Shown: positions 141-7,344 of the stretch, piece by piece
Layout: each line of letters begins with the position of its first letter
How positions within the stretch are numbered: position 1 is the stretch's first letter
Source of the DNA: Sulfuricella sp. T08
GTDB taxonomy: Bacteria > Pseudomonadota > Gammaproteobacteria > Burkholderiales > Sulfuricellaceae
DNA length: 38,537 bases
NCBI RefSeq assembly: GCF_000971475.1
Contig: NZ_DF967526.1
Coordinates: forward strand, 1 to 38,537
Reading direction: 5' to 3'
The notes under the pieces: generated by a model
What the model saw: only the letters and a program-made list of their open reading frames with translations
Told to the model about the DNA's origin: nothing
Database searches by the model: none
Program-made: the position numbers and the translations under genes

Positions 141-2588
141 TTAGTCCAGGATAGCCATCGGCTTGTATTCGTGGGCATCCACACCCTCGCCGCGTGCTTT
201 CCATGGATCGTCCTGGGAATATTTCTGCGATTCGTAAAAACGTTCGGCATAGACCTTGCGCTGCTCGGCATCATCCACCACACGTTCCTTGACATAGGTC
301 AGACCGCGTCGTTCTACCCAGGGTGCGGTGCGCTCCAGGTAATGCGCATCTTCGCGGTAGACCTGCATGAAGGCGGCGCAGTATTCCAGAACCTCTTCCT
401 CGGTCTTTACATGGCACAGGAAATCGGTGGCGCGCACCTTGATTCCGCCGTTGCCACCGATATGCAGTTCCCAGCCCGAATCCACCGCGACTACGCCAAA
501 GTCCTTGATGGTGGCTTCGGCGCAGTTGCGCGGGCAGCCCGAGACGGCCAGCTTGAACTTGTGTGGTGTCCACGAACCCCAGGTGAGTTCTTCCAGCTTG
601 ATCCCCATGGTTGTCGAATCCTGGGTACCGAAGCGGCACCATTGGCTGCCGACACAGGTTTTTACAGTACGCATGGCTTTGCCGTAGGCGTGTCCGGAGA
701 CAAATCCGGCTTCGGAAAGATCTTTCCAGATTCCCGGTAATTGTTCTTTCCTGATCCCCAGAAGATCGAGGCGCTGGCCGCCGGTAAACTTCACCGTGGG
801 TACTTCCCAACGCTCGGCAATCTGAGCAATCGCCATCAGCTGTTTGGGCGAGGTGTCGCCGCCGAAGATACGCGGTATCACGGAGTAGGTGCCATCCTTC
901 TGGATGTTGGCGTGCACGCGTTCGTTGATGTAGCGCGACTGGTTGTCATCCACGTATTCGGATGGCCACGCGCACAGCAGGTAGTAGTTCAGCGCCGTGC
1001 GGCACTTGTTGCAGCCATCGGGGGTTTTCCATTCCATGAAATGCATCAGCGCGGGTATGCTCTTGATGCCTTGGCGGGTGATGGTTTCGCGCACCTCGTC
1101 ATGGGAATGCTCGGTACAGCCGCACATCGGTTTTTTGGATGGTGCAGTGGAATAGTCACCACCAACTGTCACTGCCAGCAGCGACTCCACCAGGCCGGTA
1201 CATGACCCGCAGGAACTGGACGCCTTGGTATGGGCACGCACCTCATCCAGGGTAAAAAGCTTCTTGTCGCGGATGGCTTTGACGATATCGCCCTTGCAAA
1301 CGCCATTGCAGCCGCAAATTTCGGCGCTGTCCGGCATGGCCGCGACGCGGGCATGAGGGTCGCCGTGGCCGGAATCGCCCAGATTGTGCTGGCCGAACAG
1401 CAGGGAAGAGCGAATATCCGAAACATCGGTCCCCTCGCGTAGTAGGTCGAAATACCAGCTGCCCTCCGTGGTGTCGCCATACAGCACCGCGCCCACCACC
1501 TTGTTGTCCTTGAGCACGACTTTCTTGTAATTGCCGCCCGACGGGTCGGAAAGCACGATGGCATCGGTGCCTTCAGCACCCATGTAATCTCCGGCGGAAA
1601 ACAGGTCGATCCCGGTGACCTTGAGCTTGGTCGAGGTGAGCGAGCCTGTATAGCGGCCTATGCCATATTCAGCCAGATGATTGGCGGCTACTTTGGCCTG
1701 TTCGAACAGGGGTGCGACCAGTCCATAAGCCACGCCGCGGTGGCTGACGCACTCGCCTACGGCGTAGATGCGCGGGTCGAAGGTTTGCAGGGTGTCGTTA
1801 ACCACCACGCCGCGATTGCAGTAGAGGCCGGCGCTTTCGGCCAGCTCCGTGTTGGGGCGTATGCCGACCGCCATCACCACCAGATCGGCGGGAATGCTAT
1901 CGCCATCCTTGAAGCTCACCGCGCAGACGCGGCCGGATTCGCCAGGCACCAGCGCGTCGGTCTGCTTCTCCAGCAGGAATTTGAGGCCCTTGGCTTCCAG
2001 GCTTTGTTGCAGCAGGCGGGCCGCCGGTTCGTCGAGCTGGCGATCCATCAGCCAGGGCGCGATATGCACTACGGTCACGTCCATGCCGCGCAACATCAGG
2101 CCGTTAGCGGCTTCCAGGCCGAGCAGCCCGCCGCCGATCACCACTGCATTGCGGTAGCGGCTGGAAGCATCAAGCATAGCCTCAACGTCGCTGATATCGC
2201 GGAAGGAAACGACGCCTGGCAGTTCTGCGCCAGGAATGGGCAGGATGAAGGGGTTGGAGCCGGTGGATAGCAGCAGGCGATCATATTCCGCGCTGGTTCC
2301 GTCTTCGGCAAATACGATGCGATTTTTGCGATCGATCTTAGTGACTTTTTTGTTAATGTGCAGATGGATCTGATTCTGCTCGTACCAGTCCATCTCGTTG
2401 ATGATGATGTCCTGTACCGTCTGCTCGCCAGCCAGGACCGGGGACAGCAGGATGCGGTTATAGTTGGGGTGAGGCTCGGCGCCAAATACGGTAATGTCGT
2501 ATTTGTCAGCCGCGATTTTCAGCAGTTCCTCCAGCGTGCGCACTCCGGCCATGCCGTTACCCACGAGAACGAGTTTCTGTTTTTGCAT
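141..2588 (-). CDS. nirB: Assimilatory nitrite reductase [NAD(P)H] large subunit
   Basis: NirB reduces nitrite to ammonium in the cytoplasm using NAD(P)H, FAD, iron-sulfur clusters and sirohaem. The 815 residues follow family order. An N-terminal pyridine-nucleotide-disulfide oxidoreductase domain (VGNGMAGVRTLEEL at the start, GGGLLGLEAA later) spans roughly residues 1-400. A BFD-like [2Fe-2S] domain has C425-x-C427 and C460-x2-C463. The C-terminal nitrite/sulfite reductase domain carries the sirohaem/[4Fe-4S] ligands C645-x5-C651 and C685-x3-C689. The ATG start has CAGGAG upstream. No nirD small subunit is seen between nirB and the window edge. The gene follows nrtC after a 208-base gap that contains its own sigma-54 promoter, so it can be transcribed separately or as the end of the nrt operon. 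Confidence 0.97.
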   Translation of the reverse strand: MQKQKLVLVGNGMAGVRTLEELLKIAADKYDITVFGAEPHPNYNRILLSPVLAGEQTVQDIIINEMDWYEQNQIHLHINKKVTKIDRKNRIVFAEDGTSAEYDRLLLSTGSNPFILPIPGAELPGVVSFRDISDVEAMLDASSRYRNAVVIGGGLLGLEAANGLMLRGMDVTVVHIAPWLMDRQLDEPAARLLQQSLEAKGLKFLLEKQTDALVPGESGRVCAVSFKDGDSIPADLVVMAVGIRPNTELAESAGLYCNRGVVVNDTLQTFDPRIYAVGECVSHRGVAYGLVAPLFEQAKVAANHLAEYGIGRYTGSLTSTKLKVTGIDLFSAGDYMGAEGTDAIVLSDPSGGNYKKVVLKDNKVVGAVLYGDTTEGSWYFDLLREGTDVSDIRSSLLFGQHNLGDSGHGDPHARVAAMPDSAEICGCNGVCKGDIVKAIRDKKLFTLDEVRAHTKASSSCGSCTGLVESLLAVTVGGDYSTAPSKKPMCGCTEHSHDEVRETITRQGIKSIPALMHFMEWKTPDGCNKCRTALNYYLLCAWPSEYVDDNQSRYINERVHANIQKDGTYSVIPRIFGGDTSPKQLMAIAQIAERWEVPTVKFTGGQRLDLLGIRKEQLPGIWKDLSEAGFVSGHAYGKAMRTVKTCVGSQWCRFGTQDSTTMGIKLEELTWGSWTPHKFKLAVSGCPRNCAEATIKDFGVVAVDSGWELHIGGNGGIKVRATDFLCHVKTEEEVLEYCAAFMQVYREDAHYLERTAPWVERRGLTYVKERVVDDAEQRKVYAERFYESQKYSQDDPWKARGEGVDAHEYKPMAILD

Positions 2589-2796: not shown

Positions 2797-3588
2797 TCAG
2801 GCTGCGGGTCTAAGCTGGCGTCGATACAGGAAGTCCAGAACCGCACCGCGGTATTCGTGGTATTTCGGATTGTTCGCCAGTGCCAGACGCTCGCGCGGGC
2901 GCGGCAAGCTGACCGTCAGGATCTCGCCGATGGTAGCGGCCGGGCCGTTGGTCATCATCACGATGCGGTCGGACAGCAGGACGGCTTCGTCCACGTCGTG
3001 GGTCACCATGATCACCGTGCTTTTGGTTTCCGCGGCGATCTTCATCAACTCGTCCTGGAGGTGGGCGCGGGTCAAGGCATCCAGTGCGCCGAACGGCTCG
3101 TCCATCAGCAGCACTTTGGGCTGCATGGACAGGGCGCGGGCGATGCCGACCCGCTGCTTCATGCCGCCGGAAATTTCATGCGGATACTTGTGCTCGGCAT
3201 GGCTAAGCCCGACCAGCGCGAGCGCTGCCTGGGTGCGTTTTTTCATGGATGCGCTGCTTTCTGCCCGGGCAAAGACACGCTCGACCGCCAGATGAACGTT
3301 TTCGAAGCAGGTCAGCCATGGCAGCAGGGAATGATTCTGGAACACCACTCCGCGTTCCGGACCAGGTCCGGCGATTTCCCGTCCGGCGCACAGCATTGCG
3401 CCGTTGCTGGGAATGGTCAGCCCGGCAACCAGGTTGAGCAGGGTGGATTTTCCGCAGCCCGAGTGACCGATCAGGGAGATGAACTCGCCTTGCTCGATGT
3501 TGAGGTTGATGTCGCGCAAAGCGACGAAGGGGCCTTTCTTGGTGTCGAAAGTCATTTGCACGTTTTCGATCTGAACATATTTTTCCAT
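2797..3588 (-). CDS. nrtC: Nitrate ABC transporter ATP-binding protein
   Basis: This 263-residue ABC ATPase would power nitrate uptake with NrtA and NrtB at the inner membrane. Visible motifs are Walker [10 protein letters not shown], signature [14 protein letters not shown], Walker [10 protein letters not shown] and the switch histidine in VTHDVDEA. It resembles the NrtD/SsuB/TauB subfamily and has no extra C-terminal solute-binding domain of the cyanobacterial NrtC kind. The start at 3588 ([10 protein letters not shown]) was chosen over an upstream in-frame start at 3690 because GGGAG sits eight bases before it and the upstream extension is encoded by a palindromic repeat. The neighbours nrtB and nirB are on the same strand. 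Confidence 0.93.
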
Positions 3589-3602
3589 CAAATTCTCCCG
3601 AT

Positions 3603-3677
3603 GTAGCCCGGATGGAGCGAAGCGCAATCCGGGGAAAGTTTCCCGGATTACGGCCTTGCGGCCTTCATCCGGGCTAC
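3603..3677. repeat. Palindromic intergenic repeat between nrtB and nrtC
   Basis: A perfect 12-base inverted repeat (GTAGCCCGGATG at 3603-3614, complement at 3666-3677) encloses about 50 bases that themselves contain AATCCGGG/CCCGGATT. This matches the widespread class of proteobacterial dispersed elements beginning GTAGCCCGGATG. It separates nrtB from nrtC within the operon and could affect mRNA processing or stability (inference). Confidence 0.7.
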
Positions 3678-3682
3678 CGATT

Positions 3683-4594
3683 TCACTCATATGAAAACCG
3701 CTTTGCCAGCAGTACCAGCATCTGCTCCAGCAGTAACCCGACGATGCCGACCACGAAGATGGCGATGATGATGTGCTCGACGTTGAGGTTGTTCCATTCG
3801 TCCCACACCCAGAAACCCAGGCCGACGCCGCCGGTCAGCATCTCCGCCGCCACGATCACCAGCCAGGCCACTCCGATGGAGAGACGGATGCCGGTCATCA
3901 TGTAAGGCAGCACGGCGGGGAAGAGGATTTTGGTGAAAATCTTCCACTCCGACAGGTTGAGTACCTTTGCTACGTTCATGTAATCCTGCGGAATGCGGTT
4001 TACGCCGACTGCGGTGTTGATGATCATCGGCCAGATGGCAGAGATGAAAATCACCCAGATCGCTGCCGGATTGGCTGCCTTGAACACCAGCAAGCCAATC
4101 GGCAGCCACGCCAGGGGGGAAACCGGACGCAGCAGGCTGATGATCGGGGCGGTCATGGCGTTGAGAAACTTGAAGCGTCCGATCATGAAGCCGAGGGGAA
4201 TGCCGATTGCCGCTGCCATGCCGAAGCCGATCCCCACCCGTTGCAGCGAGGCCAGGATATTCCAGCCGATGCCCTGATCATTGGGGCCCTTGTTGTAAAA
4301 AGGGTCGCTGAACAGCTGCTGTGCCGATGCCCAGGTCTTGAGCGGGCCGGGTAGTTGCGGGCTGGTCTGTGAGACCAGTGCCCAGATGCCGATGAAAATT
4401 GTCAGACCCAGCACCGGCGGAACCAGCCATTGAAAGAAATTTTTGGCTGCCAGGGAAAAACGTCGCCCGGCTGTGGGCACGGGTTCGCTCACATTGATAG
4501 ATGGCGAAATATTGAAGACTTTGGCTGTGGCGACGGTTCCATCGCCTGCCGTGGTTTCCTTCAAGCTTTCTATGCCTGGATTCGCTGCATTCAT
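3683..4594 (-). CDS. nrtB: Nitrate ABC transporter permease
   Basis: This is a 303-residue integral membrane protein of the NrtB/SsuC/TauC permease family. Hydrophobic segments start near residue 30 ([17 protein letters not shown]) and recur to the C-terminus. The cytoplasmic EAA-like loop is visible in [22 protein letters not shown], where the ATPase docks. The start at 4594 (MNAANPG) has GGAG seven to eight bases upstream and is preferred to 4636. Placed between the globin and nrtC genes, it is expected to form the channel of the nitrate importer. The substrate is inferred from NrtA, the ANTAR leader and nirB. Confidence 0.92.
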
Positions 4595-4620
4595 TTTAAA
4601 CTCCTGTTTGAGGGCTGCAC

Positions 4621-4650
4621 CTCCGGGCTGGCGCAAGTGCCAGTCCGGAG
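4621..4650 (-). promoter_or_regulatory. Intercistronic hairpin between the globin gene and nrtB
   Basis: Arms CTCCGG and CTGGC pair with GCCAG and CCGGAG across one mismatch and a six-base loop, giving an 11-bp stem in the 67-base gap. No U-tract follows, so it is more likely an RNA processing or stabilising element than a terminator. The minus-strand loop is ACUUGC, which has A at position 1 but not G at position 4, so it is not a full ANTAR-type hexaloop. Confidence 0.45.
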
Positions 4651-4661
4651 ACGGGCTCGTA

Positions 4662-5075
4662 TTATGCCGAGCCGTAGGCAGCCTGTTTCATGGTAGAGGC
4701 CAGTACGCCATAAGCCTCGACCCACCCTTCCTTGACCTCGGGCGTAAAGCCTGCGCCTAGCCCTTGGCCCAAAGTCCAGATCAGGGCATTGCCCACGGTG
4801 TCGAAATGCTCTGCCTTGACGCCATATCCGACGTGACGGCGCCCTGATTCTTTCACCATTCCGATGATGGATTCGAGTCGGTCCAGGCTGTTGACGACCA
4901 TGTTGATCATGATCATGAGCTTGCGTCCTTGCTCGACCATATCCCCGTTGAACAGGCTGCGCAGGGAAGGGTCCAGTTCGAACAGGCGGTTATAAAAGAG
5001 TCCGGCTGCAGTATCTTGAATGGGCACTACCTGCTGCCAGCTATTGCGAACCAGTTCTATTTTTTCAGGTGTCAT
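4662..5075 (-). CDS. Single-domain bacterial haemoglobin
   Basis: A 137-residue globin of the Vitreoscilla haemoglobin/flavohaemoglobin-head type. Expected haem-pocket residues are visible: Tyr28 (B10), Gln49 (E7) and proximal His81 in RRHVGYGVKAEHF. The globin fold continues to the C-terminus (WVEAYGVLASTMKQAA) with no room for the FAD/NAD reductase domain of Hmp. Such proteins bind O2 and NO and, with a reductase, can oxidise NO to nitrate. Its position between nrtA and nrtB in a nitrate-assimilation operon suggests a role in NO protection or in returning NO to the nitrate pool; that is inference. Confidence 0.9.
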   Translation of the reverse strand: MTPEKIELVRNSWQQVVPIQDTAAGLFYNRLFELDPSLRSLFNGDMVEQGRKLMIMINMVVNSLDRLESIIGMVKESGRRHVGYGVKAEHFDTVGNALIWTLGQGLGAGFTPEVKEGWVEAYGVLASTMKQAAYGSA

Positions 5076-5105: not shown

Positions 5106-6359
5106 TTACGCTTTGATTTTGAAGCTGGCGGCGTAGGCTTTGGGGTTCTTGCCATCCCATACACTGCCGTCCATGAGCTTGCTGGTGCGCATGACATCCT
5201 TCGGAATGGGTGTCTTGGTCTGGGTTGCAGCCTGCTTGTACAGTTCGATCTGGTTGACCTTCTTGGCCACGGCCAGGTAGTCCGGATCTTCCTTGAGCAG
5301 GCCCCAGCGCTTGTGCTGGGTGAGGAACCACATGCCGTCGGAAAGGTAGGGGAAGTTCACCGCTCCATCTGCATAGAACTTCATGTAATTGGCGTCCTGC
5401 CATTTCTTTCCGTTGCCGTTGTCGTACTGGCCCATCATGCGGTCCTCGATGGAGTCAAAATCGGTGTTGACGTAGGATTTCTCGGCAATGATCTTGGCCA
5501 CCTGCGAACGGTTCTTCATTTCGTCAATGTATTTGGATGCATCCAGCATCGCCATGATCATGGCTCGCGCGGTATTGGGGTATTTCTGCACAAATTCAGC
5601 CGTGGTGCCGAGCACTTTTTCCGGATGGTTTGTCCAGATGTCCTGGCTGGTAACAGCCGTAAAGCCCACGTTGTCGCGAATGGCCCGCGCGTTCCAAGGT
5701 TCGCCGACGCAAAATCCATCCATATTGCCTACCCGCATGTTGGCGATCATTTGCGGTGGCGGCACGGTGATGTTCTTCACGTCGGAGAATGGATTGATGC
5801 CATACGACGCCAGCCAGTAGTAAAGCCACATGGCGTGGGTGCCGGTGGGGAAGGTCTGGGCGAAAATATACTCGCGCGGCTCCTTCTTGATCAGCGCAGC
5901 CAGACTGGTGCCATCCACCGCACCTTTGGTCTTCAGCTGATTGGACAGGGAAATGGCCTGGCCATTGTTGTTGATGCTCATCAGTACCGACATGTCTTTC
6001 TTCGGCCCGCCGATACCCAGCTGAACCCCGTAGATCAGGCCGTACAGCACATGGGAAGCATCCAGTTCGCCGTTCACCAGCTTGTCGCGCACCCCGGCCC
6101 AGGAGGCTTCCTTGCTGGGCACGATTTTTATGCCGTATTTCTTGTCAAAGCCCATCACCGAAGCGATTACCACCGAGGCGCAATCAGTCAGAGGGATGAA
6201 GCCGATTTTGACCTCGGTCTTTTCCGGTGCATCGGAACCTGCTGCCCAGGCCCCGACACGTATTGCTGGATCGACCATGGACATCAATGCCCCGGCCCCC
6301 AGTAAAGTAGCGCCTTTTTTCATAAAATCTCTCCGGCTGTTTTTGGAATCTGTAGTCAT
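5106..6359 (-). CDS. nrtA: Nitrate-binding protein of an ABC transporter (Tat-exported)
   Basis: This 417-residue periplasmic solute-binding protein belongs to the NrtA/CmpA family and delivers nitrate to NrtB. The N-terminus NSRRDFMKKGATLLGAGALM is a Tat signal (RRDFMK plus hydrophobic core). The mature part has family features such as KIGFIPLTDCASVVIA and NMDGFCVGEPWNARA. The start at 6359 (MTTDSKNSRRDF) is chosen because AGGAG precedes it; an upstream start at 6398 would lie inside the leader terminator. It is the first structural gene after the sigma-54 promoter and ANTAR leader. NasS sensors are homologous but lack an export signal, so this one is assigned to transport. Confidence 0.94.
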   Translation of the reverse strand: MTTDSKNSRRDFMKKGATLLGAGALMSMVDPAIRVGAWAAGSDAPEKTEVKIGFIPLTDCASVVIASVMGFDKKYGIKIVPSKEASWAGVRDKLVNGELDASHVLYGLIYGVQLGIGGPKKDMSVLMSINNNGQAISLSNQLKTKGAVDGTSLAALIKKEPREYIFAQTFPTGTHAMWLYYWLASYGINPFSDVKNITVPPPQMIANMRVGNMDGFCVGEPWNARAIRDNVGFTAVTSQDIWTNHPEKVLGTTAEFVQKYPNTARAMIMAMLDASKYIDEMKNRSQVAKIIAEKSYVNTDFDSIEDRMMGQYDNGNGKKWQDANYMKFYADGAVNFPYLSDGMWFLTQHKRWGLLKEDPDYLAVAKKVNQIELYKQAATQTKTPIPKDVMRTSKLMDGSVWDGKNPKAYAASFKIKA

Positions 6360-6373
6360 GGTTTTCTCCTGGA

Positions 6374-6434
6374 TAAAAAAACAAAAAAGGCGTCGCATCC
6401 GCGAAAGTGATTTCTCCCGCGAATGGACGCCTTT
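6374..6434 (-). terminator. Regulated intrinsic terminator in the nrtA leader
   Basis: The minus-strand RNA forms an outer 9-bp stem (AAAGGCGUC/GACGCCUUU, 6386-6394 with 6426-6434). Across a single bulge this continues into an 8-bp stem (6396-6403 with 6418-6425). A run of Us broken by one G follows at 6375-6388. It lies between the promoter and nrtA and would block the operon unless suppressed. The two hexaloop hairpins just upstream make it a typical ANTAR-controlled attenuator. Confidence 0.88.
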
Positions 6435-6446
6435 GTCCTTGATGAA

Positions 6447-6504
6447 GCCAACCGTCGTTGGTCGGCTCAGATTTTATTCACTTGCTGTGGCCCGTCGTTG
6501 GACC
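6447..6504 (-). promoter_or_regulatory. ANTAR two-hairpin antitermination motif (P1 and P2)
   Basis: P1 (6489-6504) has a 5-bp stem and P2 (6447-6466) a 7-bp stem, some pairs being G-U. Both close the identical six-base loop AACGAC, with the A at loop position 1 and G at position 4 that define ANTAR RNA targets. They are separated by 22 bases. P1 begins about four bases after the predicted sigma-54 start site, and P2 ends 12 bases before the terminator stem. The NasT-like protein encoded directly upstream is the obvious binder. Confidence 0.88.
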
Positions 6505-6518
6505 GTTGATTTACCTAA

Positions 6519-6534
6519 AGCAATACACGTGCCA
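6519..6534 (-). promoter_or_regulatory. Sigma-54 promoter of the nrtA operon
   Basis: Minus-strand TGGCACGTGTATTGCT matches the sigma-54 consensus with GG-N10-GC spacing. Predicted start near 6508, giving a leader of roughly 149 nucleotides before nrtA. The promoter lies immediately after the nasT stop codon, so any enhancer sites must lie within or beyond nasT. I did not find a clear NtrC palindrome there. Confidence 0.85.
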
Positions 6535-6541
6535 GAATTAT

Positions 6542-7147
6542 TTAACCCAGCAATTCCGTGATCTCGACCAACTGCCGTGCCACATCCGCCAAGCGAGAGC
6601 CCTTGTCCATGGCCGCTTTGCGCAAAGCTTGATAAGCTTCTTCTTCGGACCAGCCGCGCTGCCTCATCAAAATTCCCTTGGCGCGCTCCACATCCTTGCG
6701 CTCCGAAAGCTGGCCTTCCGCTTTTGCCAGATCCGCCCGCATTGCCTGAAATTCATTGAAGCGTGCAATCGCCACGTCCATGATGGGACGCAAGCGCTCG
6801 CTTTTCAGGCCATTTACAACATAAGCACTGACGCCGGCACGAATGGCAGCGCGGATCTTGTCGCTATCATCATCGTGGGTAAACATCACGATCGGGCGCG
6901 GCTGATCACGTCTGATAACGCATAAATTCTCCAGCGTGTCCCGGTCTGGGGACTCTGTATCCAGAATGATCAGATCCGGTTTCAATTCAGCCACCAGGCC
7001 AGGCAGATCGGCACTGGAGGAGACGTGAGCCACAATCTTGCAGCCCGCATCCTGCAAGGCGTGCTTAAGAAGCGCCGCGCGCTCGAAGGTTTCGTCTACC
7101 AGCAAGACGCGAAGAGGGAATTCAGAGGGTTTGACGGGGGATTTCAT
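6542..7147 (-). CDS. nasT: NasT-like response regulator with ANTAR RNA-binding domain
   Basis: This 201-residue protein has an N-terminal receiver-like domain (about 12-125) and a C-terminal ANTAR domain (about 145-199, with VERAKGILMRQRGWSEEEAYQALRKAAM). ANTAR proteins bind paired hexaloop hairpins and prevent leader termination, and a matching target lies directly downstream. The receiver keeps Asp18, Asp63 and Thr90 but has Asn112 where the conserved lysine is expected, so normal phosphorylation signalling is doubtful. In known systems NasS holds NasT inactive until nitrate binds; no nasS is present here. The ATG at 7147 is preferred, with a weak ribosome-binding site; an in-frame TTG at 7165 is possible. 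Confidence 0.9.
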   Translation of the reverse strand: MKSPVKPSEFPLRVLLVDETFERAALLKHALQDAGCKIVAHVSSSADLPGLVAELKPDLIILDTESPDRDTLENLCVIRRDQPRPIVMFTHDDDSDKIRAAIRAGVSAYVVNGLKSERLRPIMDVAIARFNEFQAMRADLAKAEGQLSERKDVERAKGILMRQRGWSEEEAYQALRKAAMDKGSRLADVARQLVEITELLG

Positions 7148-7344
7148 AACTTGCCAATAATGCAATTCTCATACCATGGCAGGCAACTGATTGATCCTGA
7201 ATAGAATCATTGAAAATAGAAGGTGTGACCAAAAGACAGGGCTATATGGGCGCACCAAAAACGGGCGAGATTTCCACCTGATGCGCCAAACGTGAGCCGA
7301 CTTTAATGGAAAGGGGGAGACGGACTCGCTCGCCCCTTCCTCTA
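7148..7344. other. Intergenic region between nasT and the yaiI-family gene
   Basis: No gene is supported here. An imperfect inverted repeat (GGAAAGGGGGAG against CTCGCCCCTTCC, about 7309-7341) lies just after the downstream gene's stop; it lacks a T-tract. A sigma-54-like match at 7161-7175 would place the start only about three bases before nasT and is not convincing. Confidence 0.4.

Follow-up and report, generated by a model that had tools for sequence, protein, structure and literature searches.

Leaders of the ANTAR dual-hexaloop type, as described for eut, nasF and amiE, carry hairpins with A1/G4 hexaloops, the second of which follows a short linker and overlaps the terminator (PMC3369931, PMC7496416, PMC8934654). 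The linker between the two hairpins measures 5-12 nt in eut leaders, and EutV antitermination at eutP was impaired when this linker was extended to 14 nt, or by 20 nt (PMC3369931, PMC8934654); a curated actinobacterial set accepts linkers of 2-25 nt (PMC8164766). The ANTAR dimer seems to engage a single hexaloop at a time, and structural work that raises the question of why two hairpins are needed for antitermination proposes a hand-off from a recruitment hairpin to an antitermination hairpin (PMC8934654).

Among nitrate genes, those of Klebsiella oxytoca are under the double control of the Ntr system and nitrate-responsive ANTAR antitermination at nasF (PMC5424462), the antiterminator NasR carrying a NIT domain as nitrate sensor (PMC7496416, PMC3369931). 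The nas operons of Paracoccus, Azotobacter and Pseudomonas are preceded by a leader attenuator and rely on NasT, a receiver-ANTAR protein, which is held by NasS, an NrtA-like protein lacking a signal peptide, as long as nitrate and nitrite are absent (PMC3795266, PMC5424462). Sigma-54 promoters have been predicted for nitrate transport genes in a survey (PMC12316311).

The window examined here is a stretch of 38,537 nucleotides from Sulfuricella sp. T08, on which a gene for a receiver-ANTAR protein (nasT) adjoins nitrate genes, with the elements of the leader between nasT and nrtA all lying on the minus strand (Table 1). This locus would, judged from its sequence, belong to a kind of system already known, a NasT/ANTAR attenuator behind a sigma-54 promoter, of which its three-hexaloop form is a variant. 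Azotobacter vinelandii and Pseudomonas aeruginosa have likewise been described as combining sigma-54/Ntr control with ANTAR antitermination at nitrate genes. The window protein resembles NasT of the NasS-NasT systems and differs from NasR in possessing a receiver domain instead of the NIT domain. It is probable that the leader is a NasT-controlled transcription attenuator of the nitrate-uptake operon, with three ANTAR hexaloops instead of two.

Table 1. Features of the nitrate locus in the window, with positions counted from the first nucleotide of the stretch.
Feature	Position	Strand	Description
nasT, receiver and ANTAR protein	6542..7147	-	PF03861 and PF00072; ATG start at 7147, upstream TTG at 7165 possible
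Sigma-54 box TGGCACG-TGTA-TTGC (TGGCACGTGTATTGC), -24/-12	6534..6520	-	0 mismatches to TGGCACGN4TTGC
H1, first A1/G4 hexaloop hairpin GGTCC[AACGAC]GGGCC	6504..6489	-	extra, 5'-terminal loop; P1 of the sequence-only reading
H2, second hexaloop hairpin GAGCCGACC[AACGAC]GGTTGGCTT	6468..6445	-	canonical P1 position
H3, third hexaloop hairpin GGAC[AAAGGC]GTCC	6438..6425	-	overlaps 5' arm of terminator; canonical P2, antiterminator
Intrinsic terminator stem and U tract	6440..6375	-	minimum-energy fold
nrtA, nitrate-binding protein	5106..6359	-	PF13379; Tat-type RR motif, RRDFM read from translation
Globin gene within operon	4662..5075	-	PF00042
nrtB, permease	3683..4636	-	PF00528
nrtC, ATPase	2797..3690	-	PF00005
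nirB-like nitrite reductase	141..2588	-	own perfect sigma-54 box upstream at 2664-2650

From the nrtA start at 6359 the genes run in the order nrtA, globin gene, nrtB, nrtC and nirB. The placement of the globin gene between nrtA and nrtB was also found at two other loci (L009, L012), with globin genes located near nasT at a further two (L030, L041), and is reminiscent of the Bradyrhizobium nitrate operon, which includes an NO-detoxifying globin (PMC4724949). The second perfect sigma-54 box (minus strand) lies approximately 60 bases upstream of the nirB-like gene; between the two, a small palindrome (GGCTACATCTGGATGTAGCC) was observed and inspection by eye revealed no hexaloop leader. A plasmid search using positions 6374-6540 as the query gave no match.

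A scan of positions 6600-6301 for A1/G4 hexaloop hairpins identified H1, H2 and H3, and no further one. An attenuator of the ANTAR type before nrtA had already been recognised in the sequence-only reading, and is borne out by these hexaloops, by the terminator and by the fold of the leader (6374-6512), which was more stable than that of 200 of 200 dinucleotide shuffles (z -5.76). That reading had counted two hexaloops, overlooking H3, and had given the terminator a stem of 17 bp; the stem was found to comprise 19 pairs (6432-6414 with 6388-6407), interrupted by a single bulged base, and eight outer pairs, mostly A/U and G/U, followed by a U tract at 6388-6375. When the transcript was folded step by step, H1, H2 and H3 coexisted with its end at 6425 and H3 was still standing at 6395, with the terminator replacing it at 6389. 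The terminator pairs (6440-6414) and H3 are therefore mutually exclusive, while the minimum-energy fold contains both H2 and the terminator, and only H3 overlaps the 5' arm.

The earlier interpretation took H1 and H2 to be the canonical P1 and P2, with the terminator simply located downstream. Both hairpins do carry A1/G4 hexaloops, and the 20 nt that separate them fall inside the range accepted for the actinobacterial set (PMC8164766), so the linker alone does not exclude them as a pair. It is the overlap with the terminator that decides: holding H2 would not prevent termination, H3 lies only 6 nt after H2, and it is H3 that is the most constant hairpin among relatives. Together with the impairment of EutV by lengthened eutP linkers (PMC3369931, PMC8934654), these observations render this assignment highly improbable. 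H2 and H3 therefore correspond to the canonical P1 and P2 and, in their A1/G4 hexaloops, short linker and last hairpin overlapping the terminator, share the features of the described leaders, to which the window leader adds a third hexaloop, located at the 5' end and separated from the pair by 20 nt. The earlier observation was correct, and its interpretation was in part supported and in part mislabelled.

The sigma-54 box, which begins 7 nt after the nasT stop codon (TAA, 6544-6542), is one of only two sites without a mismatch identified on either strand of the window, confirming the consensus promoter first read there. Counting from the -12 base, transcription is predicted to start near 6508, which places H1 at +5, in agreement with the approximately four bases previously proposed. 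Among the leaders collected from relatives (described below), 57 of 95 had, in the 180 nt upstream of H3, a sigma-54 box departing from the consensus by no more than one mismatch, compared with 0.07 predicted by base-composition shuffles, and such a box was present in 13/13 leaders of the family set. Downstream of the box a hexaloop was detected in 54 of these 57 leaders, its start always lying at least at +4 from the predicted start, and in 28/57 (counted from scan rows) the first hexaloop stem was located at +4 to +8. A tight join of promoter and first hexaloop, as remarked on in the sequence-only reading, is therefore common among these leaders.

The window genome was found to encode sigma-54 (Sigma54_DBD, 223.3 bits) and NtrC (721.8 bits against a cut-off of 558.6). 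NtrC is the presumed activator of this promoter; a scan for NtrC sites gave no match near it that stands out. The locus had been described as double-gated, and both a promoter and an attenuator are indeed present. However, a terminator does not fit into the 7 nt that separate the nasT stop codon from the promoter, and transcripts from the nasT promoter must therefore enter the leader. The sigma-54 gate is thus leaky rather than strict, with nasT transcripts also meeting the attenuator. The double gating was overstated also in that the combination of Ntr control and antitermination is in print for K. oxytoca (PMC5424462).

Conservation was investigated using NasT relatives from 36 loci on named genome contigs and from a search of 61 genomes. 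In an alignment of 13 family leaders, A1 and G4 were invariant in H1, H2 and H3 of all 13. The identity of the two AACGAC loops, emphasised in the sequence-only reading and correct for H1 and H2 of the window, was not conserved among relatives, which show for example AACGGC, AATGGC, AATGTA or AAAGAC, with A1 and G4 kept. Stem cells were paired in 97.2% of cases in the family leaders compared to 89.5% in shuffles, and two-sided changes were found at three of the five pairs of H1 and seven of the eight pairs of H2; of five pair measures, one ('further pair types') was not above shuffles in these 13 leaders (181/500). H3 is invariant inside the family and varies outside it with compensation (GGAC/GTCC, AAGAC/GTCTT, CGAC/GTCG). 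The six Competibacteraceae leaders, aligned whole, have H1 loops ACCGCT, ACTGGC (twice), AATGGT, ATTGGC and AAAGGC, such that A1/G4 is fixed in 6/6 while positions 2, 3, 5 and 6 vary; A1 and G4 were likewise invariant in H2 and H3 of all six. In this small set (n=6), the number of pairs with two-sided changes was not above shuffles (195/500).

To collect leaders, sequences were searched for NGAC-AANG[AG]C-GTCN, its outer letters paired, followed by a T run, a pattern which misses leaders with other last loops. It yielded a leader at 25 of the 36 named NasT loci. A looser scan of the other 11 found at least two A1/G4 hexaloops at five (L015, L023, L024, L034, L038), one at three (L025, L030, L036) and none at three (L033, L040 and L018, the last of which ends 38 bases past the end used). 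Among the loci of the later set (L073-L193), 43/121 lacked the pattern and were excluded from the count. The presence of an extra loop, meaning an additional hexaloop located upstream of the nearest, was judged by one fixed criterion (an A1/G4 hexaloop closed by C:G, with four paired bases, or five of six), and the expectation was derived from dinucleotide shuffles. Upstream stretches containing N (L028) were excluded from these counts and from those of the sigma-54 boxes.

By this criterion 32 of 61 leaders have an extra loop (0.89 expected), comprising 14/16 Sulfuricellaceae-like leaders (0.21 expected), 4/5 Competibacteraceae leaders (0.02 expected) and 14/40 other leaders (0.66 expected). 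The fifth Competibacteraceae leader (L029) has a T:G pair closing its H2 stem, and H1 was therefore counted as the nearest loop there; the nearest loop of L020 (AGCGCT) sits in a palindrome and is doubtful. Among leaders fetched later, from hits of the covariance model described below, the extra loop was found in 6/34 (0.57 expected), with 0/12 in those from a heavily sampled family (f200), whose narK RNA matches suggest that it is Pseudomonas-like. A spacing rule by which the extra loop goes with a nearest loop close to H3 was apparent in the first 61 leaders (Fisher p 2.4e-7) and not in the 34 later ones (p 0.65), and was dropped.

A covariance model of the H2-H3 part, built partly from the window leader, matched in 28/61 relatives (E <= 0.01), 53/369 genomes of the class and 48/398 genomes of the phylum (both E <= 0.001), these search sets overlapping and including the window genome; matches without an assigned locus and four weak matches among the relatives stand outside the leader counts. 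In the window genome the model gave one match at E <= 0.01 (E 1e-12, to a leader from which it was partly built), which suggests a single target for NasT. Among 22 family genomes, NasT of at least 66% identity and a leader at E <= 1e-4 were found in the same 13, a co-occurrence to be expected because gene and leader are neighbours.

These distributions bear on whether H1 takes part in the attenuator. The leader could be an ordinary two-hexaloop attenuator of H2 and H3, with H1 being a mere 5'-end hairpin, for example one protecting the transcript, whose loop resembles an ANTAR site. H2 and H3 alone satisfy the two-hairpin definition published in PMC3369931, the extra loop is absent from 26/40 of the other leaders and 28/34 of the later ones, and one leader (L019) lacks H1 and, with a single hairpin before H3, presumably works. 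However, a plain H1 stem would not need A1/G4, which are fixed in the 13/13 family and 6/6 Competibacteraceae leaders while other loop positions vary, and extra loops occur far above the shuffle expectation. We therefore regard this reading as unlikely. The third loop is a real variant limited to certain lineages. Three loops are not generally required, since the later leaders mostly lack the extra one and exceptions exist in L019 and in L055, which is without an A1/G4 loop at H2.

The product of 6542-7147, predicted to be an ANTAR protein in the sequence-only reading, was confirmed as such and is of the NasT type. Its receiver retains aspartate at the acceptor position and has asparagine in place of the receiver lysine, a position occupied by aspartate in the four NasT proteins that have NasS as a neighbour (positions judged by eye). 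Two tandem nasT-like genes were observed at L021 (5327-6576; 42% and 61% identical to the window nasT) and on contig 15 of genome G043. The window genome also encodes a second receiver-ANTAR protein (contig 41, L002 1480-2055, minus strand; 191 aa, 24% identical to NasT), which has lysine at the receiver position where NasT proteins carry D or N.

Four NasS proteins encoded next to nasT were combined into a profile, with which 14 genomes were searched. Three of the genomes, which have NasS beside nasT, showed both NasS (681-776 bits) and NrtA (360-372 bits), and are partly circular controls as they are the sources of three profile rows. In eight Sulfuricellaceae genomes (the window genome and seven others, all among the 13 family genomes with a close NasT) the profile matched only the exported NrtA of the operon (242-292 bits; as two fragments at contig ends in G018) and no other protein scored above 25 bits; a separate NasS was thus not found in them. 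The next match after NrtA in the window genome scored 23.4 bits. Three further genomes, Competibacteraceae or gammaproteobacterial (G064-G066), gave no second protein of NasS strength. In a separate search, four NMT1_2 genes were identified in the window genome, of which the three other than nrtA scored 34-78 bits, one of these (L005) having a signal-like N-terminus. At six Competibacteraceae loci (L026, L027, L028, L029, L031, L042) the NrtA-like protein encoded after nasT carries a Tat-like RR motif, and that of the L026 genome nevertheless scored 525 bits with the NasS profile; a double role in transport and sensing is possible for it.

The window genome differs in this respect from the NasS-NasT systems of Paracoccus, Azotobacter and Pseudomonas, with which it shares NasT and the leader attenuator. 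Because NasS was not found by the profile search, nitrate control through the described NasS-NasT route is not supported here, and the nitrate step is less certain than had been stated. Without NasS, NasT might be always active, leaving expression to be set by the sigma-54 step alone, together with the level of nasT. The profile result for the eight genomes, set against the controls in which both proteins appear, agrees with such a loss of the nitrate gate, as does a Paracoccus nasS mutant, which is described as expressing the operon on every tested nitrogen source except ammonium (PMC5424462). A constantly active NasT would, however, render the conserved terminator and hexaloops useless, and the nitrate sensor may be NrtA, NasT itself or a different protein; we consider the loss distinctly unlikely.

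At gathering score, a search of Rfam gave no match in the window. Below it, the leader scored 32.9 bits with narK RNA (RF03032; gathering score 43.2) and 20.6 bits with P11 (RF00625; gathering score 70), and the consensus sequences of both hold an H3-like GACAAAG[AG]CGUC. The narK RNA model pairs the first hairpin only, leaving CGAC-AAAGAC-GUCG of its consensus unpaired. When 20 loci with leaders were scanned, four (L175, L184, L187, L188) were narK RNA above threshold and overlapped matches of the H2-H3 model. From this overlap and the unpaired hairpin sequence, it is very probable that narK RNA represents an ANTAR leader with two hexaloops; a printed link between the two was not found in a limited literature search that did not extend to the original description of narK RNA. 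Nor did a literature search, outside of which most subscription papers lay, find a publication on three-hexaloop ANTAR leaders, which is no proof of absence, and a term search within PMC8164766 found no mention of them.

The preferred reading, a NasT-controlled attenuator with three hexaloops, builds on the promoter, the three hexaloops, the exclusion between H3 and the terminator, their conservation and the genes nasT, rpoN and ntrC, all read from the DNA, to which binding, hand-off and a nitrate response are added by inference. Under nitrogen limitation, sigma-54 RNA polymerase, presumably activated by NtrC, would start near 6508, with H1 emerging almost at once, followed by H2 and then H3. 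Active NasT would be recruited by H1 and/or H2 and would hold H3 folded, keeping 6432-6425 out of the terminator and thereby allowing transcription of nrtA onward; with NasT inactive, the terminator would consume H3 and transcription would stop. We infer from the loop bases that NasT may bind all three loops, with H1 a putative auxiliary recruitment site. A further step, which we put forward tentatively and hold to be somewhat doubtful, would make this a distinct class of ANTAR leader, in which all three hexaloops are bound, NasT being loaded on the 5'-terminal one as soon as it is transcribed and then either transferred to H2 and subsequently H3 or joined there by further NasT, and in which a NasT without NasS reads nitrate by another route.

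Natural leaders with three loops, along with relatives that lack the H1 or H2 loop, are ready-made RNAs for testing hand-off against bridging. A NasT that operates without NasS would, furthermore, offer a bacterial family in which the origin of the nitrate signal can be tested.
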